NCBI GenBank assembly: GCA_001247695.2
Contig: LGRX02030290.1
Coordinates: 87,411-151,410 of the forward strand
Length of the DNA stretch: 64,000 nt
Source of the DNA: Cymbomonas tetramitiformis
Lineage: Eukaryota; Chlorophyta; Pyramimonadophyceae; Pyramimonadales; Pyramimonadaceae
Reading direction: 5' to 3'
Below the pieces are notes generated by a model that had not been told where the DNA came from, searched no databases, and saw only the letters and a program-made list of their open reading frames with translations. This document shows, piece by piece, positions 26,621-59,482 of this stretch. Numbering within the stretch: the first letter of the stretch is position 1; every line of letters starts with the position of its first letter. A program made the position numbers and the translations under genes.

Positions 26621-26755
26621 GTCGTTGAACGCGCTAGCTTCGCGCGCAACCAAAGAACAAATGTAGCCCCAAGCAGATGTAAACCCAGTGGGACAGGCGT
26701 AGCCCCAAGCGGGAGTCAGATGTAATAAAAGAGCGTTGGGCGCTCAGTCAGATGA

Positions 26756-36537: not shown

Positions 36538-36936
36538 GATGACGCGACGGTGTGTCGCGGTATACCGCAAAGGCTGCGGGATCAAAGGAACGTACGCGAG
36601 CACAATCACCAACCACAGGACAACGGCGATAGCCCATAACCTGATGGAGAGTGATATACATACATATATATATATATATATAATGCATATTGTATATCAC
36701 ACAGACCGAAGGAAAACGAAGCGTCCGGAGGCAGTCGAAAGGCGGGTGCAAACTCTAAGACGAGATAATAAAATACTTAGTTTTATTATCGAAGAGCGAA
36801 CGATGCAAGGAGTGACTAGAGACGGTACCGAGGGGTCGAGGGGTGACTAGAGACTCGAGGGGTGACTAGAGACGGTACCGCTGCCCCCCTTATAGGGGGC
36901 AAACGTGCCTCCATGACACCTGTCAGTCACCACCCA
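36538..36936. repeat. Spacer of the giant inverted repeat containing an LTR-like segment
   Basis: Most of this 399-bp spacer (about 36680-36920) is a second copy of the LTR-like repeat at 25290-25560, with an internal duplication of GAGGGGTGACTAGAGAC. An AT microsatellite lies at about 36663-36682. It may have inserted at the centre of a pre-existing palindrome or have seeded it. Confidence 0.65.
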
Positions 36937-39612: not shown

Positions 39613-39832
39613 GCTGTCGCGAACTTATGCACGAAGCGTCCACACAAAGCACTACTCTCTAGCCCTACTACTTAACAGTCTTACTTATTGTCAACGCTTC
39701 TACAACACCAGCTCGGCACTGCATATATTGTCTTATGTGGCTGCACAGTTAGCTTCCTACTGCAACCATACGAAATCTCAAAAATTTTGATATCTGCTTT
39801 TCTACAACTTATGCAAGCTCTTTTTCTCAACA
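39613..39832 (-). repeat. Displaced copy of the retrotransposon 3' untranslated segment, outside the LTR
   Basis: This 220-bp stretch is almost identical to 40220-40440, which lies between the last ORF and the left LTR of the element. It therefore sits on the wrong side of that LTR. It looks like the remnant of a second, internally deleted copy in tandem that shares the LTR. Confidence 0.8.
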
Positions 39833-40219
39833 TGTAAAAGACTGTAAATCACAGTTCTGACGCCATAACACAAGAACAAGCCCAATAAATGTATATCTTC
39901 ACAAGCAAAAGAATGCCATATATCATAAATCCTTATATCATAACACTGCTGTTTTCGCGGTCTGAGCGAGCACTTCCTATTTTCGGAATCGCTGTTACGA
40001 AGGCAAAACAAAAATGAGCGTCTGCCTCACCCTGCTATGCCGCCCTACTTATTCTCGCTATCTCTAAACAAGTGTAACACCCATCCGTATTTCCGTATCT
40101 CATCACTGTCGCAACTCCTCGCGCGTATCGTACTGCGCGTGTCATACGTTTGTCACAGAGACTGCTACAGCAAGTGTCACAACCCGGCTAAGGTACACGA
40201 TATGCCGTGGTTTGTGACA
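39833..40219 (-). repeat. 3' LTR of the methyltransferase retrotransposon
   Basis: Intact 387-bp LTR with TG…CA ends. It lacks the insertion present in the other LTR and so shows the empty target site (GCCATATATCAT) for that insertion. It is flanked on both sides by copies of the element's 3' untranslated segment. Confidence 0.85.
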
Positions 40220-40478
40220 GCTGTCGCGAACTTATGCACGAAGCGTCCACACAAAGCACTACTCTCTAGCCCTACTACTAAACAGTCTTACTTATTGTCA
40301 ACGCTTCTACAACACCAGCTCGGCACTGCATATATTGTCTTATGTGGCTGCACAGTTAGCTTCCTACTGCAACCATACGAAATCTCAAAAATTTTGATAT
40401 CTGCTTTTCTACAACTTATGCAAGCTCTTTTTCTCAATATCCCCCATCTGTATCTGCCACTCGCTGGTAGCACAGACG

Positions 40479-41744
40479 TTAAACAAGAGCTTGTTCAGCA
40501 TCTTCTGTAGTCACACCATCCAGCGCGAACTTGCCCATGCTGAAGGTGAACATACCCACTCCAGAAGCTTCTCCCCCTCGTAGCATCCTTGCTCGTGTCA
40601 GAGGATTTCGAAACACCATGACCCACATACATCTTCTACCAATGGGCCCGTGCTCCAAGTGTCCAATCACATGTAGGCGCCCAGCATGACATAACTTACG
40701 AAAGTATTGTGCCCTGCTCTCTGTCATATCTGTCATATAGTGCGATGGCACATGAATGCAAGCCACTACCCTACTGGCCAGCACTGCCAATGGCAACGCA
40801 ATGTCCAGCACTGCGAACCAGGGTGAGGTTACCACTGTGTCACACACCCCATACTTCTCCTTCCAGGCACGATAGTTGCCCGGCTGTAAGGCATTAAGAG
40901 CTTCATGCCATTTCAACTGCGGGTTCCAATCGTTGTTCATGAACTTCAGGTGAGGCCACTCCAGTGACATTACTTTGCCAATAACACCTGTACCAGCCCA
41001 TGGATCCCAGACCTGTGTAACCTTCTCCCAAGTCACCTCGTGTGCCAGACGCCTGACCTCCTGAGGAACTGTCATCACCAGTTCTAAGCCCCAGTCTAAT
41101 TGACTGGCAATCTTCACCTGGGCTCTGCTCAACTGCGTGACATCCCCCCTCTTCTGCACCTCCTCCGGGCTCATGGCCTGCACCGTAGCTGCCTTCCGCA
41201 GGCTCCTCGCACGAGTGTGCTGCTCTGAACACTTTCGACTCAAGATAGTGCGATGACCCTCGTGCCAAAATCCTGGCATCACGTCTGTAATCACTCTGCT
41301 GAGCTCTTCCTGGTTTCCCCAAGCCACTCTGTCAGGGAGATCCCCCATGCTCCCGTCCTTCTTGAGCATCTGTCGCGATGTGAGCGCCTGCCATGGGTGT
41401 TCGCGTCCCGGTCTCACGGCTCGACATGGACCCACGTCTGCAGGTAACAACACCGCCTCTGTACCCAGCTTCTCCCTCAACTGCAGCTCCATGGCAGCCA
41501 TCTTCTCCACAATGGACGTACTCACCACGGCGGCAGCTGCCACTGCGACCACGCCCAAGCATTTGGGGCATTGCCAGTCTCCTTCAGGCACTTCACCCAG
41601 CTTTGGCTCCAGACACCAAATGTGATAGCCACGATTGCAGGTGTCACACAGCAGCATCGCTGCCTCCCCATCTGTTCTCATGCACACCTCGCACGCGAGA
41701 TGTTTGCTAGGGATGGCTGCGCTGCAGTCGTACTGATCCTTCAC
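40479..41744 (-). CDS. PHD finger fused to a putative amino-DNA-methyltransferase, last ORF of the retrotransposon
   Basis: A 421-codon ORF. Residues 18-62 form a textbook C4HC3 PHD finger: C18, C21, C33, C36, H41, C44, C59, C62, with W57 before the last Cys pair (EGDWQCPKC). PHD fingers bind histone H3 tails. Residues about 235-380 look like a Rossmann-type methyltransferase: DPWAGTG at 247-253 (SAM-binding motif I), NNDWNP at 270-275, and VVTSPWF at 304-310, which resembles the catalytic (D/N/S)PP(Y/F/W) motif IV of N6-adenine and N4-cytosine methyltransferases, with W in place of the second P. The ORF begins in a −1 frame overlapping the end of pol by a few bases, and its first codon would be GTG. 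Expression by −1 frameshift, reinitiation or splicing is therefore likely. PHD is certain; methyltransferase activity is inferred. Confidence 0.8.
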   Translation of the reverse strand: MKDQYDCSAAIPSKHLACEVCMRTDGEAAMLLCDTCNRGYHIWCLEPKLGEVPEGDWQCPKCLGVVAVAAAAVVSTSIVEKMAAMELQLREKLGTEAVLLPADVGPCRAVRPGREHPWQALTSRQMLKKDGSMGDLPDRVAWGNQEELSRVITDVMPGFWHEGHRTILSRKCSEQHTRARSLRKAATVQAMSPEEVQKRGDVTQLSRAQVKIASQLDWGLELVMTVPQEVRRLAHEVTWEKVTQVWDPWAGTGVIGKVMSLEWPHLKFMNNDWNPQLKWHEALNALQPGNYRAWKEKYGVCDTVVTSPWFAVLDIALPLAVLASRVVACIHVPSHYMTDMTESRAQYFRKLCHAGRLHVIGHLEHGPIGRRCMWVMVFRNPLTRARMLRGGEASGVGMFTFSMGKFALDGVTTEDAEQALV

Positions 41745-44700
41745 CTGTAGATGACACGGTGCGATGTTCTGTACTGTACTCTTTTCCGCAACTTCGTGCT
41801 GTCCTCCAAGACTACCACTCCATCCCTCTGCACCTTAACCAACTTCAAGATAGCTGGCTTGGTGGTCACCTCCATGCCAGAGCGCGGCTGTTGTCTTATG
41901 TACACGAAATCACCTGCTTTGAACTGGTGCGGCTTCGGCTCGTAGCTGCCACTCCTCCTGTGCTCATATCGCAAGGTGTCGCGGTGCTGAGCGATCTCTA
42001 GGTTGCACCCTGCGTGCACCATGAGCTTCTTCACTATGGCCGCTCGCTGCAGCAAGTCCTCAGCCAGTGTCCTCTCCTCTTGCTTCTCAAAGTCCAACTC
42101 GGGTCGAGCACGAAGGTCTGGTGGCACAGTAGCTTCCTGAGCGAACAGCAGCGTGAACGGTGCCACCCCAGTCGACTGTTGCTTGGCCGCATTGTAACTG
42201 AGCACGAGCGACCAGAGCATCTCATCCCACTCGAAGTCCAGGCCCTTGTCAAGGGCCATCTTCTTGAAGCAGAACTTGAGAGTGCGCACCACTCGCTCCG
42301 TTAAGCCATTGCTCTCCGGGGAACTAGGTGAAGTCACCCTCCGATCGATGAGACACTGCCTGCATAGTGCAGCGAACTCACCTTCGAATTCCGTGCCTCC
42401 ATCCACAAGGCATTCCGCCGGCGCCCCAAACACTGACAGAACGTGACTGCGAAACGCACTGGCGATGGTGGAAGCTTCCTTGTCGGGAATCGGAACACAC
42501 ACGACGAAACGCGTGTATTGCTCAGTCATGACCAAGACACGCTGGTTCCCAGCTTTCGTGATGCGCTTCGTCGGCCAGGCTAAATCCAGGGACCAGCGAT
42601 GCATGAAGGATTTGATCTCCAGCGGCGTAAGCATTGCCTCCTCCCGTGCGTAGTGCGTCTTCACTCTCTGGCAAGTTTGGCACTGAGTGACCACTGCTCG
42701 CACATCCTGTTTCATGCCCACCCAGTAATGACGTTGCCACAACAAGTTCAGCGTTCGCCTGATGCCCCAATGGCCAGTTCTCTCGTGGTGCTCACGCACC
42801 AGCTGAATTCTGTCACAGGGTTTGGGCACTAGAAGCTCCTTGCCACTGACGGTGACCATGTACAGCTCGCCCATGAGCTCGTCCCAGCGGTGACGAGCTG
42901 CTCTCTTCCTTACTCTGTGGTACTCCTCCTTGGGCACCTCCACTCTTCCTCCGGTCTTTATCCACGCGAGGCATAGCTCGTCCTCGTGTATGTCAGGGTA
43001 TTTCTCCCGAAGTGACTCCTGGTGGGTCACACTGGCTACCATAGCAACCATTCTCGTCGTGTCAGTCAGTCCAGGCAGCCTCATTTCTTTCTCCTTCACC
43101 ACTGGTGCCCATTCTGGAGCTGAGCTTACCTCTACTGGCTTGTCCCCAGGTCCTGAAAAAGCTTGGCGATGACGTGCCTCGTAGCCCGCGAGCTTCATGG
43201 AGGCAAGCTTCCACTGTCTGCGACGTGGAACGGCGTCGGCTGTACCGAGTCCCTGAGTGCCTTTCTGCCCTTGGCTGCACATGTGTTGCAGCCGCTCCTC
43301 CCAGTCCTGATGGCTAAGGCGTCGCGCGACTTGCTGAGTGTAGTCGTTGGAACTGGTGATCCACTCTGCCAATCGTGCTCGCACTGGCTCCGTTGTAACT
43401 CCAGAAGTGGTAGCCACCTCGGTAGACTTCACGATGGGGATGGCAGCTAACGCGCCATGCTCCTCCTCCTCGCTCTCCTGACTCTTTGGCAGCTTGGTTG
43501 TGCTGACCTCAGCAACCGCATATAACAGCTCCATTGCTCGGCGATCCATGGCGAGACCGAGTACGCTTGCCAACTCTTCGTCTCTCATGCCATGAGCCAT
43601 GCGTAGCTCACTCGCGTTGTACCCCATGGCAACAGCTTTCTCGTCCAGGTTGACCTCTCTGGTTTCTCCTTTCTCCTCAACATCTTCTTTCCTTACCACA
43701 GTGCCTGCACGGGGTGCACGAAAGGCTCGGGAGTTCTGCGTTGCCAAGATGGTCGGCAGAACCCGCATAGGCTCCCCCACGACGTTGGCGGTGTAGTGAG
43801 GCTTCCTGTCTCCAGTGACTACCTTGCGTGGCTTCCAGCCTCGCTGCAAGATGTCACACACATATCTGTCCGGTGGCCTGTTCACCCCCTCCATCACCAG
43901 ATTGAACTGATGATTCTGAAACAGATTGCTCCAATATGCTCGTAGGCGATGCGCGTATGATCCCGCGCGCGCTGCGTCGAAAGATACCGGCTGGCCCACC
44001 ACACTATTGATGATGGGGAACACTTCCTTCCTGATCTTCGAGTTCTCCCGGTGCGATAACGGGGAGACATTCTCTAGCACATATGCTGGCGGTCGCTGAG
44101 GCTGCAGCTGCTGCAGCGTCGAAAGGATCCGCACTGCCTGATAGAACAGCCTGCCGTGCTTGCCCTCCAAACCAGCTAGCTTGCCGGCTGGTGACAGGTC
44201 CTGACATGGATACCCACACACCATGATCCATTGCTCTCCGCTCAATGCCCCCGCATGCACGAGGCCAATGAGACTGGTGTCCTCGATGTTGCTGGGGAGC
44301 TGCTCCAGGTGAACCGCATCAGCGTGAAACAAGTCAGGATGACGGCGACTGAGCGCCATGCACCTTGCCCTGGCTACCGCCTGGCTGGACTCCGAGGTGT
44401 CCTGGTAGAGGTACTTGTTGACCTTGACGCCACAGCGCAAAAGCATCTCCAGCCCAGCACACAAGCCCCCACAGGGCTCATAGCAGACCACGCCTTCTTC
44501 TCTGGCCTCTCGAAAGAAGCTCTTGTCAATCATTCTCGTGTCGATCTTCTTTGGCACCTTGAGCTTGCCACCCTCCATGGTCTCGTCGCCGTAGATCGCT
44601 GGGGAGCCTCCAGAATGCATGCCCCTGACCGGCTGGACCTGGCTGAGGGCATCCCAGGCGACTCGTGTCAGCCTGCCAGAGCACCTAGCCACCTCTGGGT

Positions 44701-47668
44701 GGTCAGTGTCAAACATGACCCCCTTGTTGCACTCCAACTCCTCTTGGTAGTGTACATCAAACAGTCGATGGATTGCGCTGGTCCCCAGCTGCTCCATGAC
44801 CATCTTCTCGCAGTAGTTGGCCACCTGAGCCTCGGGGCTCACTTCTGATCCAAGCGGTGGCTCCCTGGTCACTTCTAAGCAGATGGTATCTGCGAAGCAG
44901 CGCATCAGCCTCTCGGCGTGCCCCGCTTCCCGCGCGCGGTCCCCTTCTCGGTCCAAGCGGGCACCAGTTTCGTCTGCTGTGCTGGGCAACGGGTACCTGG
45001 ACGGCACATCCGCGTTCTCGTTCTTCGGGCCTGGTCGATACTGGACCGTGAACTCAAACTCCTGAAGACTGATGGCCCAGCGCAGGTGTTGGCCCTGCAA
45101 GTCCCCCTTTTCCATGAGGGTCGTGAGCCGTGAATGGTCGGTGATCAGCGTGAAGTGGATCCCGTGGAGGTACTGGCGCAGAGTGCGGATTGCCCACACC
45201 ACTGCCAGCATCTCACCCTGGAAACTCGCGTACTGTCTCTCGGTCTTCGACAGCGAGCGACTGATCACCACGCAGATGTGCTCTACGCCATTCTCGTCCT
45301 TCTGGCCCAGCACTGCACCAATGCCATGGTTGCTCCAGTCCGTGTAGAGGAAGATGGGCTTACTGTAATCGATGGGCTTCAAACACCTCCCCGAACATAG
45401 AGCATCCTTCAATGCCTGCAACGCCTGGTCCTGCTCCTTCCCCCAAGCTTCTTTGACGTCCAACACATCCTTCCTGAGCAGGTCGTTCAGTGGTCGAGCC
45501 ATCTCTGAGTAATTGGGTCCCATGGGTTCCCCCACCAAGCCCTTGTAGTAGTTCATGAGCCCGAGGATGGAGCGCACCCCAGTCTTGTCCTCGGGCTTGG
45601 GCAACTCTTGGATGGCCTTACACTTGATGTCCTGCGCGCCAATGGTGTTGTGGCCAATGCGGTAGCCCAAGAAGTCCACGGTGGCTGACCCGAAGGTTGA
45701 CTTGCCCGAGTGCAGTCGGATCCCTGCATCCCCCAAGGTGCGAAGCACAGCCTCTACATTCTTGATGTGCTGCTCAGCGGTGTCTGAGTATATGCACACG
45801 TCGTCAACGTACGCCACCGTACAGTGTTGCAGGTGACGCAACTCGTAGTCCATGATCCTGATGTAGGCAGCGGTCGCTCCAGCTGCTCCAAATGGCATGG
45901 AAGTGTAACGATAGAGCTGATTGCCCCACCAGAACGCTGTCTTGTCCCTGTCCTCCTCGGTGGTCATGGGAATCTGGTGGAACGCCTTGGTCGCGTCCAG
46001 AGTAGTCTTGAACTTGGCTTTCGCCACGCGCTGATAGAGCTCTTCTGGACGGTGAGGCAGCGTGTTGTCCTTCAGCGACAACCGGTTCGTGTTCCGTAGG
46101 TCGACACAGAAGCGCGTCGAGGTCCACTGTCCAGTATCATGGTCCTTCTTCCCTGCGACCACCACGTTGCTGGCGTGTCTACAGTGCTGCGAGGCCGGCT
46201 CGATGAAGCCGTACTCCAGTAGCTCCTTGCAGTGCAGATCGATAATCTCCTGCTCCTCTGGGCTGTACTTCCTCGGTCGTTGGTAAGCCACCTTGGTTTC
46301 GTCCTTGAACGGGATGGCGAAGGTTGCATGTGCTGCTCCTCCATGGTAGCCCTTGATGTCCTGTGGTTTGTTGGCGAAGCAATAGCTGCATCTCCTCACC
46401 ACGTTGCGCATCTCCTCCCAGTTCTCCTCAGTGAACTCGGGATGCCCCCCGAAGGTGGCATTGAGCTCGGTGTCCAACCACGCGGCCTCGTCTTTGGTGA
46501 CTCTGGTCGTGCCCCCTGGCTGCAACGTGTCCAGCACCGTGTGCGGAAGCACCTCGCCCCGTTCTGCCACCATGGCTTCCCACCCAGTGTCCCATTGACG
46601 CGAGGACCTCTGGTCCTCCCAGGTGGTCCTGGAAGACCTGTGCAGCGGGTCAGAGCACGAACCCGTAGCGGGCACGCCCCGAAACTCCCCAGGGGTCACA
46701 GTGGCCACCCAAACGGCGACCACGAGTAACAACAAAAGTCTTAAAATTCTGCTGGTTCCCATTGGTTTGACTGGAGGGTGAAGGGTCAGTATGCAAGTCA
46801 GCATCTTCCACCCCCCCTGCATACGGCCCAAACCTCCGCCTGCCGATACGTAGATCACCAGCGCCAGGACCAGCGCCACGTAGGCGTAATGGGCCACCCG
46901 GTAGCAAGTGGTCACGAGCCGCAGGCGCTGCAGACGGGCAGCAAAACGCGGCTTCTGCATGCGGCGCGGGATGGCCGCCAGCGCGGCAGGACCCGCCGCA
47001 GCGACTCGCTGCGCGATTGCCAGCGTGTGGCTCACGCGAGTGCGAAGCGCGGCAAACATAGGAACGCGCGCCAAGCAGAAGCCCGGCAGACCATGCCTCC
47101 CAATGTGAACGGCGACCATCAAGCTGCACCCCAGTGAACCGACTGTGCCCACGAAGCGCATGGCGAGCATGGCAAGCCCAAGCCGAAGCAATGGCACATA
47201 CCATAGCCCGTGCCGGGCATGGTGTAACCCAGCCACCTCACAGGCAACCGTGCTCAGCAACAACAAGTGCCTCGCCAGCTCCGATAGCACACGAAGATGT
47301 AGACGTGGGTGCGCCCACTGCTGTAGCGGCGCGGTACGCACGGCCCACAATGCGCGCGCCATTGCTCTGCGATGCACACCTGCACGACACATCCAGACTG
47401 CTGCCATCTCGCCAAGGCATCTGACCACCTCCATTGCCATCCATATGACCATCACCGCAAAGTGGGGCAGCTGCGGCCATTGTAAGCGCGCGAACACCCC
47501 CACGAATAGGAAGCACACCTGAGCGTGCCCTGCCCACCGCCTGGCGGCAGGCTGTGCACCCGGCTGTATGCCGGGGCTGCTTCTCAATAACGGGTGCGCC
47601 GGGCTGCAGCGGGCCCGGCGCCCCATTGAAAAGGCCCCAGTGCGCTGTCCTTTCTCCGTTCCTCCCAT
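41741..47668 (-). CDS. Pol polyprotein: hydrophobic region, reverse transcriptase, RNase H, C5-DNA methyltransferase, integrase
   Basis: A 1,975-codon ORF without breaks. Residues 1-330 have five or six hydrophobic segments (about 51-80, 132-148, 159-186, 259-277, 308-324). RT spans about 400-740, with YVDD at 620-623. RNase H follows, with D777, E819, D844 and D887. The methyltransferase spans about 1060-1390: motif I EPCGGLCAGLEM, catalytic Cys1155 in GYPCQDLS, ENV at 1199-1201, AHRLRAYWSN near 1239, and a C-terminal LGLAMDRRAMELLYAV. Spacing is DNMT3-like although motif IV is PCQ. Integrase has an HHCC zinc site (H1628, H1633, C1663, C1666), catalytic D1695, D1756 and a Glu about 35 residues later (E1791 in LTERVVRTL), and a C-terminal small barrel-like domain. 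No chromodomain is seen. The frame is closed by TGA two codons upstream of the ATG, supporting this start. Confidence 0.93.
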   Translation of the reverse strand: MGGTEKGQRTGAFSMGRRARCSPAHPLLRSSPGIQPGAQPAARRWAGHAQVCFLFVGVFARLQWPQLPHFAVMVIWMAMEVVRCLGEMAAVWMCRAGVHRRAMARALWAVRTAPLQQWAHPRLHLRVLSELARHLLLLSTVACEVAGLHHARHGLWYVPLLRLGLAMLAMRFVGTVGSLGCSLMVAVHIGRHGLPGFCLARVPMFAALRTRVSHTLAIAQRVAAAGPAALAAIPRRMQKPRFAARLQRLRLVTTCYRVAHYAYVALVLALVIYVSAGGGLGRMQGGWKMLTCILTLHPPVKPMGTSRILRLLLLLVVAVWVATVTPGEFRGVPATGSCSDPLHRSSRTTWEDQRSSRQWDTGWEAMVAERGEVLPHTVLDTLQPGGTTRVTKDEAAWLDTELNATFGGHPEFTEENWEEMRNVVRRCSYCFANKPQDIKGYHGGAAHATFAIPFKDETKVAYQRPRKYSPEEQEIIDLHCKELLEYGFIEPASQHCRHASNVVVAGKKDHDTGQWTSTRFCVDLRNTNRLSLKDNTLPHRPEELYQRVAKAKFKTTLDATKAFHQIPMTTEEDRDKTAFWWGNQLYRYTSMPFGAAGATAAYIRIMDYELRHLQHCTVAYVDDVCIYSDTAEQHIKNVEAVLRTLGDAGIRLHSGKSTFGSATVDFLGYRIGHNTIGAQDIKCKAIQELPKPEDKTGVRSILGLMNYYKGLVGEPMGPNYSEMARPLNDLLRKDVLDVKEAWGKEQDQALQALKDALCSGRCLKPIDYSKPIFLYTDWSNHGIGAVLGQKDENGVEHICVVISRSLSKTERQYASFQGEMLAVVWAIRTLRQYLHGIHFTLITDHSRLTTLMEKGDLQGQHLRWAISLQEFEFTVQYRPGPKNENADVPSRYPLPSTADETGARLDREGDRAREAGHAERLMRCFADTICLEVTREPPLGSEVSPEAQVANYCEKMVMEQLGTSAIHRLFDVHYQEELECNKGVMFDTDHPEVARCSGRLTRVAWDALSQVQPVRGMHSGGSPAIYGDETMEGGKLKVPKKIDTRMIDKSFFREAREEGVVCYEPCGGLCAGLEMLLRCGVKVNKYLYQDTSESSQAVARARCMALSRRHPDLFHADAVHLEQLPSNIEDTSLIGLVHAGALSGEQWIMVCGYPCQDLSPAGKLAGLEGKHGRLFYQAVRILSTLQQLQPQRPPAYVLENVSPLSHRENSKIRKEVFPIINSVVGQPVSFDAARAGSYAHRLRAYWSNLFQNHQFNLVMEGVNRPPDRYVCDILQRGWKPRKVVTGDRKPHYTANVVGEPMRVLPTILATQNSRAFRAPRAGTVVRKEDVEEKGETREVNLDEKAVAMGYNASELRMAHGMRDEELASVLGLAMDRRAMELLYAVAEVSTTKLPKSQESEEEEHGALAAIPIVKSTEVATTSGVTTEPVRARLAEWITSSNDYTQQVARRLSHQDWEERLQHMCSQGQKGTQGLGTADAVPRRRQWKLASMKLAGYEARHRQAFSGPGDKPVEVSSAPEWAPVVKEKEMRLPGLTDTTRMVAMVASVTHQESLREKYPDIHEDELCLAWIKTGGRVEVPKEEYHRVRKRAARHRWDELMGELYMVTVSGKELLVPKPCDRIQLVREHHERTGHWGIRRTLNLLWQRHYWVGMKQDVRAVVTQCQTCQRVKTHYAREEAMLTPLEIKSFMHRWSLDLAWPTKRITKAGNQRVLVMTEQYTRFVVCVPIPDKEASTIASAFRSHVLSVFGAPAECLVDGGTEFEGEFAALCRQCLIDRRVTSPSSPESNGLTERVVRTLKFCFKKMALDKGLDFEWDEMLWSLVLSYNAAKQQSTGVAPFTLLFAQEATVPPDLRARPELDFEKQEERTLAEDLLQRAAIVKKLMVHAGCNLEIAQHRDTLRYEHRRSGSYEPKPHQFKAGDFVYIRQQPRSGMEVTTKPAILKLVKVQRDGVVVLEDSTKLRKRVQYRTSHRVIYR

Positions 47669-47828
47669 ATTTCATCGTAACTCAGCTGCGCGTCTGAAGC
47701 ACGCGGCGCGCTCCTGCCTGCGTGCTCTCTGCGAGCGGCTCCAGGACGCCGGGTCTCCCTCCTGGGGCTCGGTGATCGCCTCCTGCGCTGGCCAGCTCGC
47801 GTTGAGCGCTGCTGTGAGAGCCCTGCGG

Positions 47829-50759
47829 TCAGGTTCTGCCGGCGCACCTCACGATGGCCGTCACGCTGGACTCCGGCGCTCGAGACGCGACCACAGGGCC
47901 GATCTGGGTTGTTGGGCGCTGTGGCGCCAAGGGTTGGTGATGGCACGACTGAGGTGGCCCCCTGGTCCTGTTCAGCTGGAAGCAGAGCTTCAGTCTGTTG
48001 CGTGCAGACGGAACCTGTCGGTGCAAGATGTCACCGACCGTCTGGTGCTCGGACCGCTGCGCAAAGTTGACCCCCAAGCCCTCGGCACGCAGCCCACCGA
48101 GCGCCTGACTAGAGCAGTGCTCCCGTGTAGGTTGTGTTTGTGCACCATGGCGACTGTCCAGGCCAGGGTCGTCGGAGCCTCGCGTGCCAATTCTCGCAGA
48201 TGGACGAGTAGTGGGAGGTCGCGCCTCGTACTCTCTGATGATCTCTGCGCGCACCCTTATTTGTTCCTCAATCGCTGCGATGCTGGCTTCATTCGCCGCG
48301 ATCTCGGCGCGCACCTGCGCCTGGTCGGCAGCCAAACCAACAAACCTCTCGCTGATTTGTCCCACGTCTTGCTCTTCCGAATAAGAACGCTCCGACTGAG
48401 GTGACAGTGTTGCTGCGTAGCGCGGGCTGGAGCCCACACCCTCACCAGCTGCGAGGCCGGGCGAGCGCCTCGAGGCGCTGTCAACCTCTTCATCCTCCTC
48501 TGTCTGTCTGTGATGGGAATCGCCATCCTCCACGGCGGGGTCCAAGCAACGCATGAAGTTGTCACACAGCTGCGTGTGTACCTCAGCTCGTTGTGCGTCA
48601 GCCAGCAGCGCGGGCCCCACAAGGGACGCAAGCTTAGATAATGGCTCCCTGTGCATCACGGCCACCTTGTCCCATGGCACCCAGCTGCAGCGATCGAACT
48701 TGCGCGTCCCGGAGGAGAGGTACTCCAAGGTGAACACGACCCCGTGGGATCCTCGTGCGCGGTAGTAGCGATGGTCCTCACAGAGGTAGTACACGGCCTT
48801 GGAACGGGAGTTGGCTCGCGTCTTGAGCACATGCAGCGTGCCCTGTTGTGGGCCGTCGACCAAATGGCTCGTGGCTATCTCCACAAGCTGCTCGCTCGTG
48901 CCGAGGTGCTCCACATGCATCTGTATGGTGCCAAGGAGTCCACCAGTGCAGCCCTTCGACTGCCCACCCAGCGGCAAACACTCACCTCGCTGCCCCACTG
49001 CTGCTGAGGAGGAGTATTTGTGCATCGTCTGTTTACTGAGTTCGCACGTGTGTAACCCTTTTCCTCGCTCTGCACAGGGCCTCCCAAGCTGGAACTCGAT
49101 CTTGCCCTTGAAGCACCGGTACTGGATGAGGAAAACCGTCTGCCCGTCCAGCGCCGCGAACTCTGAGATCTTCCTTGGGTCCAGCCAGTCGGACTCTCGA
49201 GCGGTGTCTTCGCTGTTGGTGTCCAACTCCGGCTCGTAGGTGCCCTGGAACACCGATGGGTGATAATCCAGCTTCTGAGGGTCAAAAGCCCCGTTGGGCC
49301 ATGTCTGATGCCTCAGGCGCAGCGGCCCCGAGGATGGCGACGGCGCGGAACCAGATGGCCCTGCCCCATCCTTCCTGACAGTCTTGAGTGTGCGGACTGT
49401 AGGCCCTGGTGGCGGGTCTCGCCTAGTCCCGTAGCTAGCTAGCGCGTCATGTGCTTTCTCCTCAGTCTTGCATGCAGCGAGCATCACTCTGCCGTCCCCC
49501 AAGTGTAGGTACTCCACGGCGGCGGCGTTCGTGCTGAACACCTCACCGTCTCCCCCTTCTCCATCAGTCACCGGGTAGAACTTTCCCACTTTGCCAGCTG
49601 CATCTGACAGCGTAAGCAGCGGGATGGCCCGCACACCAGCTACCACCTCATCGTACCTCACCTTAAGGCGAGCTCGGAGGTCAGCGATGTCAACTTTCTG
49701 CACGTACTTCAGGTGTTGGTATTGCCAGCGCTGGTCCTTCTCATAGTAGAAGGGCAGCTGGAATTCGCCAGTCACCTTCCCCATGGGGCTCATGCTGGCA
49801 GTGCCAGCCATGGTGTGACGCACCATGCTCTCCATGAGTTCCCACTGGACGCGAGTCTGCTCACTGAGCACGCAGAACTGACGTGCCATTTTGTCCCACA
49901 TAAGTTTGCCAGTTACGACTCCTGTGGGGTACACCTGCTGGGCGTTGAGCGCCTCCTGAACGTTCGCCATGGTGTATCGCCCAGCTTCTCGATGAGCACC
50001 ACAGTCAGGAAGCGCGACCTGATCGCGGTCCCTCCTGTAACTCGCCCGCGTGGCCCAGGTCTCTGAGGGTACCTTCGTCTCCTTGTCAACCCTCTGGTCC
50101 ACCAGCGTGAAGTCGGGCCACAGCAGCTCCGAATCCAGGATGCTCTTCAATTCCCCACAGCGTGGGAACTTGACCTGCACGAATCCTGCGTCTGGTTCGC
50201 CTCCATCGCCATCTTCACAGAGTGTGCACAAGCGAGCGTAGCCAGTGCGGTCGACGTACAGGCGCTGCTGAGACCAGCTACTCTCCTTGTCCCGATGGTC
50301 CCAAGGGTTCACTGCCATGCCTGCCCACGGTTGCGCACTGGCCAACATGTACTCAGTTTCACTTCCAGCCTCTTGCTCCTGCGTGAGGTCTGGATAGCGA
50401 GGGTCGGTCTGGGTTGTAGTCAGACTGGCTGGCGCGATGGGCACCACATTGACTGGCTCTTCAGCGCCGGACCACTCGTTCCTGGTCGCCACGTTGGCTT
50501 CCCGCTGACTGCGTGATGTCGCTTGCAGCAGGCCCAACATCTGGCCCGTTATGGACGTGCCGGACGCAGGTGGTTCGAACGTTGAGTTCTCGGCGCGCAG
50601 GCTGACCCGTCCAGTGAGCTCCACTTGCATAAGCGAGCTGGGTCGCAGGATGCCCGCTTCCACCATGGACTGGCAGCGTGCCTCAAGCATCTCCCTCTCC
50701 TCTTGGTTGAACCTTTTCAGTCTGAGCTCTTCTAGAAATGATGCCAGGAGGTCAACCAA
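47829..50759 (-). CDS. Large retrotransposon ORF of unknown function between protease and pol
   Basis: A 976-codon ORF that overlaps the end of gag-protease by 28 bp in the −1 frame. This suits ribosomal frameshifting or termination-reinitiation. Visible features: a charged helical N-terminus (EELRLKRFNQEEREMLEARC), a Cys pair with acidic loop (CTLCEDGDG) near residue 180, a globular-looking stretch with FQLPFYYEKDQRWQYQHLKY, an aromatic-rich region near 690-740 (AVYYLCEDHRYYRARGSHG), and a predicted coiled coil at about 810-855 (AQVRAEIAANEASIAAIEEQ). The last 80 residues look low-complexity and less constrained. No reverse transcriptase, protease or nuclease motif was seen. It is probably a structural or chromatin-related accessory protein; its function is unknown. 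Confidence 0.75.
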   Translation of the reverse strand: MVDLLASFLEELRLKRFNQEEREMLEARCQSMVEAGILRPSSLMQVELTGRVSLRAENSTFEPPASGTSITGQMLGLLQATSRSQREANVATRNEWSGAEEPVNVVPIAPASLTTTQTDPRYPDLTQEQEAGSETEYMLASAQPWAGMAVNPWDHRDKESSWSQQRLYVDRTGYARLCTLCEDGDGGEPDAGFVQVKFPRCGELKSILDSELLWPDFTLVDQRVDKETKVPSETWATRASYRRDRDQVALPDCGAHREAGRYTMANVQEALNAQQVYPTGVVTGKLMWDKMARQFCVLSEQTRVQWELMESMVRHTMAGTASMSPMGKVTGEFQLPFYYEKDQRWQYQHLKYVQKVDIADLRARLKVRYDEVVAGVRAIPLLTLSDAAGKVGKFYPVTDGEGGDGEVFSTNAAAVEYLHLGDGRVMLAACKTEEKAHDALASYGTRRDPPPGPTVRTLKTVRKDGAGPSGSAPSPSSGPLRLRHQTWPNGAFDPQKLDYHPSVFQGTYEPELDTNSEDTARESDWLDPRKISEFAALDGQTVFLIQYRCFKGKIEFQLGRPCAERGKGLHTCELSKQTMHKYSSSAAVGQRGECLPLGGQSKGCTGGLLGTIQMHVEHLGTSEQLVEIATSHLVDGPQQGTLHVLKTRANSRSKAVYYLCEDHRYYRARGSHGVVFTLEYLSSGTRKFDRCSWVPWDKVAVMHREPLSKLASLVGPALLADAQRAEVHTQLCDNFMRCLDPAVEDGDSHHRQTEEDEEVDSASRRSPGLAAGEGVGSSPRYAATLSPQSERSYSEEQDVGQISERFVGLAADQAQVRAEIAANEASIAAIEEQIRVRAEIIREYEARPPTTRPSARIGTRGSDDPGLDSRHGAQTQPTREHCSSQALGGLRAEGLGVNFAQRSEHQTVGDILHRQVPSARNRLKLCFQLNRTRGPPQSCHHQPLAPQRPTTQIGPVVASRAPESSVTAIVRCAGRT

Positions 50760-53700
50760 CTCGGGGTGATCTCACATGGTCCAGGTGCACACCTTTCCCC
50801 TGTGAGGGCCAGACGGTCCTCTCCCCTCGTGTCAGGAAGCACAGCCTCGCGTGGAGGTGGAGCACAGTCATCAAAGACAGAGACAAGAGAGCGCTCTGGC
50901 GCGGCACCGTCGTCGAAGATCTCAGTTGCCAAGCACACCCTGGGGTCTTCGTTCCGTTTGCTCCTCGCGTCGGCAGGCGGCGTCAACTCGATCAACGGCA
51001 GCGTGACCTTCTCCCTCATGCCCAGTGACACCGCGGCCTCAGAGGTGGCGATACCCCGGTAGAGGTCGATGGTCAGCTTGAGCGCGTTCTTCAGGGGTCC
51101 CGTGCCCACCAGGAAGTCCCACGTGGTGTCGTTGGTGTACGTGACGAAGGCGTGGAGCCGATGCAGAGTCATGTACGGGGTGCCCGCGGCGAGGATCACG
51201 TCCACGTAGCAGTACTTGGTGAACTCCGCGGGACTGCCGTCGCACCTGGCCACTCTGGCCCCTGTCTCCGCATCAAAGATGGTCAGACCGAGCCGGTTGA
51301 CCGTCCTTATGGGGATGATGTTGCAGTTGGCCCCGGTGTCTAGGAGCAGGGCCTTGTACAACATGAGCAACCCACCAGAGGCTACGAGAGCCATCCCTTG
51401 CGCCAGTGTCTCGTTCAGGAGCTTGCACACGGGCTGGACCTGCGCCATGGCAGTGAGCTGCTCTTCCGTAAGGCCACTGAGCATCCTCTTCTTCAGCAAC
51501 TCGTAGGCTTTGGCCTCCATGGTCCCGGCGTGTAGCTCGCCCTTCCCACTGAAGTCCGTCACCCCGAAGCTCTCCTGGATCGTGGCTGCTGCAGCGGTGA
51601 CACGCACAGTAGTGCTCCTCTTCCTGGGTTGGTCCACCATGTCCTCCGGCATCTCGTCCAGGGGAATCTCTTCTTCATCGCTGTCATCACCCGACTCCAT
51701 GCCTGGGCAGTCATCGTCTTCATCGCTGTCATCACCAGACTCCATTCCTGGGCAGTCGTCGCCTTCGTCATCATCATCATCACCTTCGCCACTGCTCTGA
51801 CAGTCTGCTGCTAAGGCTGCTGGTATGGGGAGCTGACCGGTCTCAGCTAGCTCCACCAAAGTCTCCAAACCCCTGGGGGCTGTTATCCTGCCCTCCGCTA
51901 CGAGTCCAACAGCCAGCTTCCGGAAAGCCGCGCCCAAGCTCTTGATCACGGAGGCCATGAGCTGCACCTTTCTCTGCATCTCGTCCGCTGCTGGCGCCAT
52001 GGGCACCTGCGCATCAGCCTCGTACTCCTCGGGTGTCTTCACTGGGAATCCCCTCATGTGTTGAGTACTACCCAGTGCTACTGCTGGTGCTGCTGTGAAC
52101 TCGGGCTCACCGCCCTTGCTCAGTGTCTCGGGGAGTTCCCCTAGGCCCAAGGTGTTGAGTGCGCTCGAGAGCACTTCCTCGCCCATCTCTTCAGCCAACG
52201 CTGAGAGCAAGCTGGTTGAAGAGCCAGATGACGCTCCTGTTCCTGCGATGTCACGGTGGTTCACCTCGTGCGCGTCAGAGATGTATGTCTCCCTTTCCGC
52301 GACGTTCGCTGTGGCCGGCTCCTCGTCGGACCCTTCGTCCTCGGAGAGCACCTGCGACTTCACGCTGCCAGCACGACTGGCAGTCTTTCGGGCAGCCACC
52401 ATGCCTTGGTACTCAGCCTTCAGTAGTGCTTCCGGATTGCCGGCTGTGCTCTTTGGTTTGTCCGCTGATGGCTGCTTAGCACGGTACTTGTCCTTCTCGT
52501 CGTTGGGCAGCTGCTGCCAATCTGTCACCAGGATGCCCCAGTCTGAGTTCTTGAAACGGTTCTTCAAGTTGTACATCCGCAGAGCAGCGTTCTCCGCATC
52601 CCACCACTTGCTGGACCCAAGCCTGCTCTCGTGGTAACCAGCTGGCATTTTGACATGCTTGTAGCCACTTCTGCACTGCTCGGGATCAGATTCGTGCCAG
52701 CCTCCTCCGAAGCAACGTAGACACTTGGGCTTGTCACTGGTGCGACCGCCCTCTGCCGGTGGCGGCGTCTTGTTGTACGCAAGCTTCTTGGTTCTCTCGG
52801 CGACGTTCACCTCCTTCTTCATCTTTTTGGAAGGCGACGCTTCCCCCTTCTTGTTGTTCTCCGGGTCGCCTGACTGCCCTTCCCCGGCTGACTCTATCTT
52901 CTTGATCGAGTTCTTGATTGCCTTGAGGTCAAGGCCGTGCTGTCGAGCCTCCCAGGTGGAGTACTGGCAGCCACACCGCCTGGTAATCTCCTGCAGGAAG
53001 GTGAGGATCCAGGACTCCGCATCGTTCTTGAGCTTGTCCTGCACCTCGATGATGGCCTCCAGGTCCTTCCAGGTCACCCGATTGGGCGGCGGGAACTGAG
53101 CCCTCAGCTGCTCCTTCACCCGCGTCTGGAAGATCTTGATGCGGAGGTTCTCCACGCAGTCCTCGATGAAGGTGCGCAGCTCCTCGTCGCTCAGCACCTT
53201 CCCGGTGTTGAGCTGCATCTCCCTGCGTTGACACATTTTCATGTATGTTAGACCGTCTTGCCCCAATTCTACTTGTGGCTTCTGGGTCAACAGATCAACT
53301 TTCTCTTGCGTTCCCTTCATCATGAACTTCTTGTCAAGGGCAGCAATGAAGCCCCTGAGTGCGTAGAAGTACTGCATGTCACGGGTGCCGTTTTGTCCCG
53401 TCAACCCTTTCAGCGAAGTCCCATCGGTCTGATACTCGGTGGAAACCTCTCCTTGGGCGTCTTGGTCTGCCGCTGGTCTCGCTATCACCCACGTAGTACC
53501 AACATTCATTTCATTGAAGGGGGGCCTAGCACATGGGATAGAACCCTCAAGTGGGCCATGTTCACTGGTGTCCTTGAGGACCCTGTCCATGTTCGAGGCC
53601 ACTACACCCCCGCTCTCATACAACTCACGCCACCAACTGAGGCTTTGTGAGTTATCACCCGCCAGACATGCGGGAACGATATCCCACAAGGTTTCCCAGT

Positions 53701-53791
53701 CAGGAGGTGTCTCTCTCAGGGCTTTGATCTGTGCCTCGGTGAGATTGGCGCTCGCCACGGACCTGAGCTTCCTCCTGATGTTGGCGTACAA
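50732..53791 (-). CDS. Gag–aspartic protease ORF of the methyltransferase retrotransposon
   Basis: A 1,019-codon ORF. The N-terminal half is helical and charged, as in gag capsid (SDEELRTFIEDCVENLRIKI; VTWKDLEAIIEVQDKL). A zinc-knuckle-like CX2CX5HX6C lies at C357-C373 (CLRCFGGGWHESDPEQC). An acidic region around residues 672-710 repeats DDCPGMESGDDSDE twice. The retroviral-type protease motif LLLDTGANCNII has its catalytic Asp at about residue 818. The first Met listed is probably not the true start: the gag reading begins in the ORF at 53700-54053, one frame over, and the two overlap by 92 bp. Confidence 0.85.
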   Translation of the reverse strand: MYANIRRKLRSVASANLTEAQIKALRETPPDWETLWDIVPACLAGDNSQSLSWWRELYESGGVVASNMDRVLKDTSEHGPLEGSIPCARPPFNEMNVGTTWVIARPAADQDAQGEVSTEYQTDGTSLKGLTGQNGTRDMQYFYALRGFIAALDKKFMMKGTQEKVDLLTQKPQVELGQDGLTYMKMCQRREMQLNTGKVLSDEELRTFIEDCVENLRIKIFQTRVKEQLRAQFPPPNRVTWKDLEAIIEVQDKLKNDAESWILTFLQEITRRCGCQYSTWEARQHGLDLKAIKNSIKKIESAGEGQSGDPENNKKGEASPSKKMKKEVNVAERTKKLAYNKTPPPAEGGRTSDKPKCLRCFGGGWHESDPEQCRSGYKHVKMPAGYHESRLGSSKWWDAENAALRMYNLKNRFKNSDWGILVTDWQQLPNDEKDKYRAKQPSADKPKSTAGNPEALLKAEYQGMVAARKTASRAGSVKSQVLSEDEGSDEEPATANVAERETYISDAHEVNHRDIAGTGASSGSSTSLLSALAEEMGEEVLSSALNTLGLGELPETLSKGGEPEFTAAPAVALGSTQHMRGFPVKTPEEYEADAQVPMAPAADEMQRKVQLMASVIKSLGAAFRKLAVGLVAEGRITAPRGLETLVELAETGQLPIPAALAADCQSSGEGDDDDDEGDDCPGMESGDDSDEDDDCPGMESGDDSDEEEIPLDEMPEDMVDQPRKRSTTVRVTAAAATIQESFGVTDFSGKGELHAGTMEAKAYELLKKRMLSGLTEEQLTAMAQVQPVCKLLNETLAQGMALVASGGLLMLYKALLLDTGANCNIIPIRTVNRLGLTIFDAETGARVARCDGSPAEFTKYCYVDVILAAGTPYMTLHRLHAFVTYTNDTTWDFLVGTGPLKNALKLTIDLYRGIATSEAAVSLGMREKVTLPLIELTPPADARSKRNEDPRVCLATEIFDDGAAPERSLVSVFDDCAPPPREAVLPDTRGEDRLALTGERCAPGPCEITPSWLTSWHHF

Positions 53792-54053
53792 AGTTCTCGC
53801 ACATGAGGGAGAATTCCCTCAAAAACTTGGGCCGGTCTTCCTCCTTGGTACCCGTGTATATAGGCAGCGTACCAAGGGCAAGGCGAGCGGAGTCACTGTA
53901 CTCCATCTCCTCCTCAAATATCACTACAGGCTCTTGGGCTTGAACCTGAGGCTGAATTGGAGCCTGAGCCTGAGGCTGAACTAAGGCTTGGACCTCAGGC
54001 AGGCCTCTGGCAGCCGCTTCCTCTTCTTCCAGCTCTGTGAAGTGCTGGCTCAC
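53700..54053 (-). CDS. N-terminal gag segment in a different frame from the rest of gag
   Basis: A 118-codon frame starting MSQHFTELEEEEAAARG. It has a Gln/Pro-rich stretch and then LPIYTGTKEEDRPKFLREF, which reads like the start of a Ty3-type capsid. Its sense appears to pass into the gag–protease ORF near 53780-53800 with a +1 shift. Either a frameshift mutation inactivated this copy or a programmed +1 shift is used, as known for Ty1 and Ty3 at a different position. Confidence 0.6.
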   Translation of the reverse strand: MSQHFTELEEEEAAARGLPEVQALVQPQAQAPIQPQVQAQEPVVIFEEEMEYSDSARLALGTLPIYTGTKEEDRPKFLREFSLMCENFVRQHQEEAQVRGERQSHRGTDQSPERDTS

Positions 54054-54169
54054 CCGTACCGCTCTCTGGGTACGTCTCTCTGCTCTTTGCTGTTTCTGGC
54101 GATCAGTGTTCGACTCCGTTGCTACGTTCCCGGTAGTGAGAAGGTCCCAATGTGAAGGCTCTTTTCACT

Positions 54170-54720
54170 CCGCACTTCCAAGCTTACCAGTACGGATAAA
54201 TCCGTCCCTGGCCTAACCTTTCAGTACTTCGCTACTAAGTAGCAGTCACTGTAAGGATATTCTCACTCATGAATTACGTGTCGAGTCTCGCAGGTAACTT
54301 GACTCCTGCCTTCCTCCACTCCTTCCAGATAGCCAGCACGGTTGATTTCACTCTCAGTGCAACTGGTCAGTGCTGTGCCTCGGCAGAATGCCAGAATGGG
54401 TCAGGATGCCGAAATGAACGCTGCCGTAATGATAAATACTGACAATCCCGTTTCGCTCTACGCCTTCAGGCGTACCAGTACGGATAAATCCGTCCCTGGC
54501 TTTACCGTCCGGTGCTTTGCTCCAGCAGGATGTCATTTCCCAGAATAGTCCAGAATAACATTCTCAACGCTGTAACCATAATGAACAATGAACCCCCGGT
54601 TTCGCTCTAATTGTTGCCGCTGTGCCTCGCAAGGCTACTGAACTTCGAGTGCCACAACAGTCTGTTTCCCTCAACTTCTTCCAAGCTTACCAGTACGGAT
54701 GAATCCGTCCCTAGCCTCAC
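54170..54720 (-). repeat. Three diverged leader repeats, each with a GGATAAATCC hairpin
   Basis: CCAGTACGGATAAATCCGTC occurs at about 54187-54206, 54474-54493 and 54693-54712 (one change in the last). Each is embedded in longer, weaker similarity (…CTTACCAG…CCCT(G/A)GC…TT(C/T)…). They lie between the 5' LTR and the first gag ATG, that is, in the RNA leader. Each core can fold into an ACGGAT…ATCCGT stem. Confidence 0.7.
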
Positions 54721-54804
54721 CCTTCAGAAGCCTTGTTCTCCAGGACTGCTGTTACGCTCTCAGAATTACAGACGACATGTCTGTAATAAAGCACATTTTT
54801 GTTT

Positions 54805-55865
54805 TGTAAAAGACTGTAAATCACAGTTCTGACGCCATAACACAAGAACAAGTCCAACAAATGTATATCTTCACAAGCAAAAGAATGCCATATTGTCTAT
54901 TGGGCGCACCTTACGGTGGGTTAACCCACCGTAAGAGGTTTTCGGAAACCGCATGCTAGTGCTAGCATATTGTGACAACTTGGCAAACCCATGCTTTTTG
55001 ACACACCTTAGGTGTTGTATTAATGCGTAGACTTGCAAAAAATACTAGACATATCGTATAGGTGTGCCTTATATACGCCCTAATATCAAGGGGTCAAGCA
55101 GAAAAATGCCCCAAATCCTTACGGTGGGTTACCCCATTTTTTCATCTATGGGTAGATTTTAAGAACGCAGTTCGCATCTGGAACATGTATATTAGAATTT
55201 TTCTATCATCTATGGCACCTAGGGGACCTCCCTTAGATGGGGTTCAGTTATCATCTGATTATAGATGGAATTCTGAGGCGGTCTACACGCGGGGGTATGG
55301 CTTGAAAAATGCACTGAATATACATAAATACGGTGTTTCGTTGTTTTCGCTTGCGGTGGCATGTTTTTTTGCTGCCTTGTCGGCGATCTAGCGGTATATT
55401 TTCCATTTCACATGGTGGATATGAGTCTAAAGTCAATGTGTGTCACGTGTATGACCCGATATACTGCTTCATAATGATAATAAATAGCTAAGACCTTAGG
55501 GTATGGTTAACCCACCGTAACGCCTCGTTACGGTGGGTTACCCCACCGTATCCCCAATAGACAATATATCATAAATCCTTATATCATAACACTGCTGTTT
55601 TCGCGGTCTGAGCGAGTACTTCCTATTTTCGGAATCGCTGTTACGAAGGTAAAACAAAAATGAGCGTCTGACTCACCTTGCTATGCCGCCCTACTTATTT
55701 TCGCTATCTCTGAACAAGTGTAACACCCATCCGTATTTCCGTATCTCGTCACTGTCGCAACTCCTCGCGCGTATCGTACTGCGCGTGTCATACGTTTGTC
55801 ACAGAGACTGCTACAGCAAGTGTCACAACCCGGCTAAGGTACACGATAAGCCGTGGTTTGTGACA
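54805..55865 (-). repeat. 5' LTR of the methyltransferase retrotransposon, interrupted by an insertion
   Basis: It has the same ends as the left LTR and carries the insertion at 54893-55564. Without the insertion and its TA duplication it would be the same 387-bp length as the other LTR. Whether it still drives transcription with the insertion present is unknown. Confidence 0.85.
54893..55564. mobile_element. 672-bp TIR element inserted at TA inside the LTR
   Basis: It starts TTGTCTATTGGG and ends CCCAATAGACAA, with TA on both sides. The other LTR shows the empty site with a single TA, which proves a TA target duplication as in Tc1/mariner-type and Stowaway-like elements. Subterminal TTACGGTGGGTTAACCC units form several hairpins. 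An internal 109-codon frame at 55062-55391 is not a recognised transposase, so it is probably non-autonomous. Confidence 0.88.
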
Positions 55866-59200: not shown

Positions 59201-59482
59201 CTCCGCTTGCCTAGCCCTATTGGCTACGGTCACAGCTCCGGGTGGTGTGCCGGACTTTAGGTTCAGGGTTATTATTATGGGCTCTGATAGCCCCTAGCCT
59301 GACCCGTCTCTGATCGGAACCGTGACTCCGCTAGTAGCTAGGATGACAGTACAGTAGTACTGTACTGTCAGTCATTACTTCGTATTATCCGGGTTTCCGA
59401 GATGCATGATAAAAGCACTCGGCCGGACTGTTTATGGGTGCTTAGCCAGTTTGTTTTACCGAGCGGAACACCTGTTCTCGCA
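56265..59482 (+). mobile_element. Gag-only LTR retrotransposon with 5-bp target duplication
   Basis: The LTRs are 56265-56498 (234 bp) and 59248-59482 (235 bp), with TGC(T/C)GGAC…TTCTCGCA ends. By eye they differ at two bases and one indel, so the insertion is young. ATATC flanks both sides (56260-56264 and 59483-59487). The interior encodes only gag-like sequence in shifted frames and no protease, reverse transcriptase or integrase. That is the layout of TR-GAG-type non-autonomous elements, which use enzymes of a partner. A canonical TGG primer-binding site is not evident. Each LTR contains a perfect palindrome (ACAGTACAGTAGTACTGTACTGT-like). Confidence 0.88.
56896..59064 (+). CDS. Gag-like ORFs of the gag-only element, in overlapping frames
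   Basis: The reading starts in one frame near 56896 (MNTPQRPRTRARARKLATIF), moves to the frame at 56999-57982 (capsid-like: LLEVRISDEHDPDFGIRLFN, LPEDAVKRQFLSALSG), then to 57703-59064. The last part has a coiled-coil-like segment (LSAQLVKLQRDVDSLKRGG), a CX4CX6HX4C zinc knuckle (CRHDKCRAVGSKHWLSEC) and a hydrophobic segment near residue 325 (ALTLFMVATFLFSATAM). The last shift is −1 at about 57700, where the third frame has its own ATG. Given the young LTRs, some shifts may be programmed or use internal initiation; this is not shown. Confidence 0.6.

Follow-up and report, generated by a model that had tools for sequence, protein, structure and literature searches.

A 64,000-nucleotide stretch of the 851.7-Mb assembly of the marine prasinophyte Cymbomonas tetramitiformis (contig LGRX02030290.1, C20827 in our numbering, positions 87411-151410; hereafter the window) contains what is probably a retrotransposon of Ty3/Gypsy type that has split direct repeats and keeps, in its Pol protein, a DNMT3-type C5 methyltransferase, a PHD finger and a D12/N6-adenine-like methyltransferase; this judgement takes in the replication and function proposed below as well as the structure. 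It is one genuine element, yet it is no plain long terminal repeat (LTR) element. Its domain order, repeat layout, termini, 4-bp target-site duplications, conservation and spread are all demonstrated at the level of sequence, and we regard the anatomy as solid and the function as putative.

The features of the element are as follows, with other copies designated by their contigs (C numbers):

39615..55865, minus strand: whole inserted element, termini TGTCAC...GCGACA, delimited by its repeats and the terminus TTCGCGACA
54805..55865, minus strand: repeat A1 at the 5' terminus, 97% identical to A2 and split by the insertion listed next (54894-55563)
54894..55563, no strand: 670-bp insertion in A1 resembling a miniature inverted-repeat transposable element (MITE), inverted ends TGTCTATTGGG, ATAT duplicated; also in C16898
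53700..54164, minus strand: start of gag, in a frame different from that of the next part in the window copy; open in gene model P0049, C1905 and C17782
50732..53818, minus strand: gag and weak aspartic-protease match (about 51230-51349; PF13650 E 0.03, PF13975 E 0.048)
47829..50771, minus strand: 980-aa frame, no Pfam match; continues gag-protease in C1905 and C17782
41741..47671, minus strand: Pol frame, 1976 aa (Pfam and solved-structure comparison)
45656..46069, minus strand: reverse transcriptase (RT), Pol aa 535-672, YVDD; PF00078 (RVT_1) 3.9e-21
45056..45445, minus strand: RNase H, Pol aa 743-872; PF17917 7e-32
43472..44551, minus strand: DNMT3-type C5 methyltransferase, Pol aa 1041-1400; DNA_methylase PF00145 E 4.1e-11
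42053..42814, minus strand: integrase (IN), H2C2 zinc binding and DDE core, Pol aa 1620-1873; PF17921 2.1e-16, PF00665 1.4e-7
40479..41834, minus strand: frame with PHD and second methyltransferase (MT2); C-terminal part of Pol in C1905 and C17782
41559..41693, minus strand: PHD finger; PF00628 1.9e-11, matched by the PHDs of CHD4, MLL3, BAZ2 and KDM5
40515..41204, minus strand: MT2, D12/N6-adenine-like, motifs DPWAGTG, NDWN and TSPWF
40222..40439, minus strand: repeat B1, 99.5% identical to B2
40216..40225, no strand: palindromic B1/A2 junction GACA-GC-TGTC (junction sequence)
39833..40219, minus strand: repeat A2, matching A1 minus its insert
39615..39832, minus strand: repeat B2 (3' terminal; repeat comparison)

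Split direct repeats and insertion

The repeats of the window copy are laid out as A1-ORFs-B1-A2-B2 (ORFs, open reading frames), with A1 and A2 differing by 2.6% and B1 and B2 by 0.5%; the sequence after A1 reads AAACAAAAATG. Instead of the identical LTRs at both ends that are typical of Ty3/Gypsy elements, the copies carry split direct repeats in the A1-B1-A2-B2 arrangement of the DIRS, PAT and Ngaro elements. This is the most unusual structural feature of the element and went unnoticed in the initial annotation of the window, which described one LTR-bounded element on the minus strand. The single element and its strand hold good but the two LTRs do not, and the boundary placed at 39833 moves to 39615, since B2 lies beyond A2.

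The same arrangement recurs across the genome. B1-A2-B2 is contiguous in four of ten further excised copies and interrupted within A2 in a fifth; amongst the other five, C17782 is truncated by the contig end and C163, C1709, C7657 and C17814 gave no B match. An 827-bp B2-A2-B1 query returned 45 scored matches, the window included, 43 of which start at query position 3 or earlier and reach at least 825, and those other than the window are 90-98% identical to it. The query contains all three parts and so favours contiguous copies, and the genome searches scored the best candidates: 40 of 1858 here, 123 of 6837 for C5-methyltransferase frames and 40 of 1426 in another search. Genome-wide, there are 656 exact occurrences of the 21-base junction word (none of its reversed control) and 1120 of the A-start word. 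Among the 100 A starts at the head of the list, 46 have the exact B end directly before them, a count in which a junction with any mutated base is scored as absent. Where two A repeats lie on the same strand 13-17 kb apart, the junction is found at the downstream A only in 13 of 14 pairs (in C502 it is at the upstream A only), as split repeats predict and paired LTRs do not. Tandem B-A units in steps of about 607 bp are also seen (C23250:84194-86837, C21727:47933-49363 and C18405:35422-36852), like units added at one end.

The termini are those expected of integrase-mediated insertion. Of 20 3' ends fetched, 19 end at TTCGCGACA and then diverge, the remaining one being truncated by a contig end. 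At the 5' side the A start was reached in five of 13 first tries and in three more by further fetches. Perfect 4-bp target duplications flank seven of the ten copies read at both ends (C1905 CCCT, C8018 ACCA, C24244 TGCT, C5951 TTGC, C10312 GCAG, C10823 AACG and C16898 GTCC), where chance would give one in 256 per copy; the window and C16898 have one 5' flank in common, so the ten are not wholly independent. Duplications in Ty3/Gypsy elements are short, at 4-6 bp, and the value of 4 bp found here agrees with this; DIRS, PAT and Ngaro elements insert without duplication and rely on a tyrosine recombinase (YR) in place of a DDE integrase, neither of which fits an element with duplications and with rve and H2C2 integrase domains. 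The dinucleotide GC stands between GACA and TGTC at the internal junction in all six copies compared but is missing from 22 of 25 inserted 3' ends, which suggests trimming by the integrase. Retroviral integrases trim two bases, and it is similar trimming that we invoke here. The CA ends, the 4-bp duplication and the dinucleotide missing from most ends mark a DDE integrase, so split direct repeats need no tyrosine recombinase.

The window copy has a history of its own. C16898 has the same 5' flank (99.6% identity over 1000 bases) and the same insertion in A1, with GTCC duplicated on both sides, whilst the 3' flank of the window copy fails to pair with its 5' flank. Two insertions therefore meet at 39614 in the window, through either a misassembly or recombination. 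A search for an empty site inside the window found both flanks to lie in repeats; a repeat near 37123-37134 has matches in both the 3' flank of C16898 and the window's 5' flank, as if the target had been a repeat copy. The repeat family in question is present at 35935-37506 and 26755-27279, in both orientations and at 84-96% identity, and the C16898 target resembles a copy of it. The outermost TGTC/GACA of the MITE-like insertion resembles the termini of its host element.

Enzymes encoded by the Pol frame

All coding parts of the element lie on the minus strand, as judged by a Pfam search of the frames, and Pol has the order RT-RNaseH-DNMT3-integrase-PHD-second methyltransferase. Compared with solved structures, Pol matches Ty3 Gag-Pol best (E 1.7e-81), the integrase part included, and the RT-RNase H-integrase order and Ty3-type sequence fit Ty3/Gypsy (Metaviridae). 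The rve match (PF00665, 1.4e-7) falls slightly short of its cut-off, but the Ty3 and PFV integrase structures also match. No phage-integrase (tyrosine recombinase) family was matched up to E 1 in the five element frames searched against Pfam. The gag-protease of the initial annotation is borne out as far as gag is concerned, the aspartic-protease matches both being below their curated cut-offs.

In the window copy the frame changes inside gag, upstream of the 980-aa stretch and once more between integrase and PHD, the last of these detaching the PHD/methyltransferase end. All three points are open in C1905 and C17782, where DNMT, integrase, PHD and MT2 share one frame. What had been called a large unknown ORF does lack any Pfam match over its 980 aa, but in these two copies it is in frame with gag-protease; likewise, the downstream PHD/methyltransferase ORF has the domains claimed for it but need not be a separate ORF.

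The placing of a DNMT3-like methyltransferase between RNase H and integrase is confirmed by Pfam, and Pfam and structure searches of Pol residues 1060-1390 return a C5-methyltransferase of DNMT3 type. A profile built from 15 family members matches DNMT3A (2e-15), DNMT3B (1.1e-11), a chain named just 'DNA methyltransferase' (4onj, 1.9e-8), DRM2 (1.2e-7) and M.HhaI (1.7e-6), and DNMT3A and DNMT3C are the sole methyltransferases matched when Pol is compared with solved structures. Motifs I, IV (C), VI (EN), VIII (R) and X are colinear, without the rearrangement seen in DRM enzymes and closest to DNMT3, and the catalytic C, the EN pair and the motif VIII R are invariant in all 15 aligned sequences. 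Seven more C5-methyltransferase frames of 383-401 aa with similar scores were found in the genome (C25294, C20845, C8, C6, C2041, C154 and C16883), possibly representing another mobile or viral DNMT family.

The best solved relatives of the PHD finger include readers of unmodified H3K4. The top protein match of the PHD frame is a C. tetramitiformis protein of 94% identity.

Assignment of MT2 draws on its relatives. The window copy's own domain gave no D12, PHROG or Pfam match. For MT2, NCBIfam returned a single chance-level row and a PDB sequence-profile search six rows, none of them a methyltransferase. Amongst 21 relatives, however, six match the D12 profile and ten match phrog_799, and there is a fold match too, the top rows of which include the rRNA m6A enzyme METTL5 and KsgA/Dim1. 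These profiles and the predicted fold support a D12/N6-adenine-like enzyme of putative substrate class, in keeping with the amino-methyltransferase suggested initially.

Spread, co-inheritance and selection

The complete order RT-DNMT-IN-PHD-MT2 is found in 64 of the 168 related protein clusters listed. A first protein search (86 matches) gave 38 with this order and 28 with RT-DNMT-IN-PHD; a second, with 120 of its 228 matches listed, added 82 new ones, 26 with the complete order and 30 with RT-DNMT-IN-PHD. The hosts named amongst the 168, besides Cymbomonas, are Haematococcus lacustris, Monoraphidium neglectum and Chromochloris zofingiensis (the last from its identifier; MT2 was not found in its protein), and most of the remaining proteins are metagenome-derived. 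Two, P0140 and P0143, have names that resemble transcriptome accessions, which we take as a hint of expression. Four short contigs (L001-L004) in metagenome-assembled genomes of Halanaerobiaceae, Mollicutes and Halorubrum encode relatives of the integrase and PHD, L001-L003 also of the RT, and are probably contaminating algal DNA. No relatives of the element were found in a viral contig collection, nor of the PHD/MT2 frame in a phage collection.

In the 54 proteins that contain RT, DNMT and IN together, distances average 0.54 for IN, 0.54 for RT and 0.58 for DNMT, with correlations of 0.79-0.84; the distances being congruent, the DNMT has travelled with Pol. Between Cymbomonas copies, the ratio of mean nonsynonymous to mean synonymous distance (dN/dS) is 0.07 for DNMT (10 copies, 45 pairs), 0.07 for PHD (8 copies, 28 pairs), 0.03 for MT2 (6 copies, 15 pairs) and 0.06 for IN (9 copies, 36 pairs). 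Eleven sources were supplied and only copies covering 90% of a domain were included; one stop each is present in three of the six MT2 and two of the nine IN copies. The ten excised copies had been picked through PF00145 matches, so that intactness was selected for in DNMT but not in MT2 or PHD. On average the accessory domains are as constrained as the integrase and selection has kept them, although purifying selection of this kind indicates no more than that the domains matter.

Proposed mechanism, alternatives and known relatives

The following scheme would account for these features. The transcript would begin within A1 and finish within B2, and the internal B1/A2 junction would serve as the template that restores both missing ends. 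Such junction-template replication has been proposed for PAT-type elements. The linear cDNA would then end in ...GACAGC-3' at both sides, with the GC copied from the junction, and the integrase would strip the GC and insert the CA ends into the target at positions staggered by 4 bp. The PHD, at the position of the chromodomain of chromoviruses, would guide the Pol complex to chosen chromatin, and the two methylases would mark the element cDNA or the new copy before or just after insertion, such that the host might take the marked copy for its own DNA or silence it softly. We consider the functional part of this scheme, PHD targeting and methylase marking, to be possible rather than probable when taken alone; putative self-marking of new copies is plausible.

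A number of observations weigh against this interpretation. Three of ten flanks are imperfect (GGGT/GGCT in C5698 and AGAG/CAGA in C23849 are near matches, the window's GTCC/GCAA is mismatched) and three of 25 3' ends carry the GC (the window, C23118 and C10312, the GC of the last belonging to its target duplication). There is no deamination scar indicating heavy self-methylation: the observed/expected CpG ratio of the element is only slightly reduced, at 0.77 compared with 0.85 for the remaining window, and is not low in repeat A (1.24-1.34). Foldseek's own ranking for MT2 includes many small-molecule methyltransferases, and its motif IV, detected in 50 of 88 domains (the other 38 fit no pattern tried), is most often SPWF (26/88) rather than xPP[YFW], the form expected of D12/Dam-like amino-methyltransferases being [DNS]PP[YFW]; SPPF occurs in 7/88 and the others differ. 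The accessory domains are not universal. H. lacustris copies lack DNMT and MT2 motifs, amongst the 168 listed proteins 58 have RT, DNMT, IN and PHD but gave no second methyltransferase, some of them perhaps being incomplete, and presence of MT2 on a quick 59-row tree requires ten changes, at least five of them forced by well-supported branches, so that MT2 appears to have been repeatedly lost or gained. In L001-L003 the stretch from RT to IN contains no DNMT, and MT2 did not turn up either, though only L003 extends far enough to show it; L001 and L003 nest amongst DNMT-bearing rows with modest support (89, and 81, drawn open), suggesting loss of the DNMT in their lineage. Maxima of dN/dS for single pairs reach 0.29 for DNMT, 0.65 for PHD and 0.24 for MT2 (0.17 for IN).

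Might the element be an ordinary LTR retrotransposon, with the extra B outside its 3' LTR a local duplication or misassembly? The window copy does have unmatched flanks and, at just this end, is either recombinant or misassembled, but B2-A2-B1 runs unbroken through 43 of 45 scored matches, with a query that favours such copies, and the target duplications lie at the A start and B end, not at two LTRs; we reject a plain LTR element on these grounds as very improbable. It is harder still to credit that a gypsy element, a DNMT gene and a PHD gene were nested or fused by chance. Separate frames in the window, and an MT2 that escapes Pfam there, would allow this, but the domain order is common to dozens of diverged proteins, with congruent distances and low dN/dS, and this conserved order leads us to reject nesting and to uphold the initial assignment of the full domain set to one element. 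A YR element was likewise rejected, given an integrase, no YR match and target duplications.

Other alternatives concern function. That the methylases act on element RNA or on host chromatin in trans (affecting translation, RNA stability or relaxed host defence) rather than on the element's own DNA is unlikely: METTL5 and KsgA/Dim1 are amongst the top fold rows of MT2, and an RNA role is discussed for a LINE-borne DNMT in the text of de Mendoza 2018 (PMC5890265), whereas the DNMT3-type sequence is that of DNA enzymes and the PHROG and D12 matches are to DNA methyltransferases. Distinctly less likely is a chiefly structural or particle-assembling role for the extra domains, or a defensive one against DNA viruses (a speculation published in PMC6338049), with catalysis secondary. 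In its favour, many MT2 domains have a non-canonical motif IV and some lineages lack domains, but all 15 aligned DNMT sequences keep the catalytic C, EN and R unchanged.

The closest published element found is KnitGypsy-Dnmt3 of the charophyte Klebsormidium nitens, which, as described in de Mendoza 2018 (PMC5890265), combines Gypsy domains with DIRS-like repeats and a Ka/Ks below 0.2. The Cymbomonas element shares with it a Dnmt3-type DNMT inside Gypsy Pol, purifying selection and DIRS-like repeats; a PHD is absent from that paper's main text and a second methyltransferase unnamed in its element section, although its figures may show more. No Klebsormidium name is present amongst the protein matches listed here, which for the most part are not labelled with an organism. 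SymbioDIRS-Dnmt3 and SymbioLINE-Dnmt are also retrotransposon-captured DNMTs, the former with A-coding-B-A-B repeats, but use a tyrosine recombinase or LINE machinery rather than a DDE integrase (PMC5890265). The initial annotation had cited DNMT capture in Klebsormidium (Gypsy) and Symbiodinium (Copia): the first is borne out, the second is not by the text of PMC5890265, which has DIRS and LINE elements with DNMTs and Copia without, though a 2025 paper does name Copia and DIRS for Symbiodinium DNMTs. According to PMC4157794, YR elements such as PAT and Ngaro have A1-B1-A2-B2 repeats but no integrase or target duplication, and DIRS-group members may have a methyltransferase domain; the Cymbomonas element shares the repeats but has an integrase, a 4-bp duplication and no YR match. 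Gypsy elements with a chromodomain or Tudor domain (PMC12477816) likewise place a histone-reader type domain straight after the integrase, but here a PHD replaces it, a methyltransferase follows and a DNMT lies upstream of the integrase. The 2015 Cymbomonas genome paper mentions three scaffolds, covered at >10,000x, whose homologies are to a chromodomain peptide, RNase H and a cytosine DNA methyltransferase, its relevant passages leaving the element undescribed beyond these homologies (PMC5741210).

No title or abstract line listed by searches of open-licence PMC describes a retrotransposon that combines a DNMT, a PHD and a further methyltransferase, which leaves absence from print unproven. 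The PHD and MT2, their deep conservation, the chlorophyte breadth and the logic of duplications and termini appear new. A broader reading, which we find rather doubtful, is of an ancient green-algal lineage bridging Ty3 and DIRS/PAT, with KnitGypsy-Dnmt3 a member rather than an independent capture, in which the PHD would read histone H3 and the methylases would stamp new copies with 5-methylcytosine and N6-methyladenine or N4-methylcytosine; were this true, chromatin state would travel with the element. Why transposons carry an enzyme that normally silences them is an open question, and one that this family makes testable because it is abundant, widespread and strongly selected for DNMT, reader and often a second methylase. 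An integrase together with split repeats also bears on the relation between DIRS-type and LTR-type replication, and the repeat family supplies hundreds of insertions for statistics.

Elsewhere in the window, Pfam searches of seven other frames gave no match. Direct repeats of 235 bp (56265-56498 and 59248-59482, 98.7% identical) surround a long plus-strand frame at 57613-59064 with no Pfam match, and are perhaps the terminal repeats of another element. A GC-rich tandem array with periods of about 26 and 73-78 bp occupies 63571-63952, and MITE-like direct repeats of 273 bp (11272-11544 and 16854-17126, 97% identical) have inverted ends of about 45 bp each.

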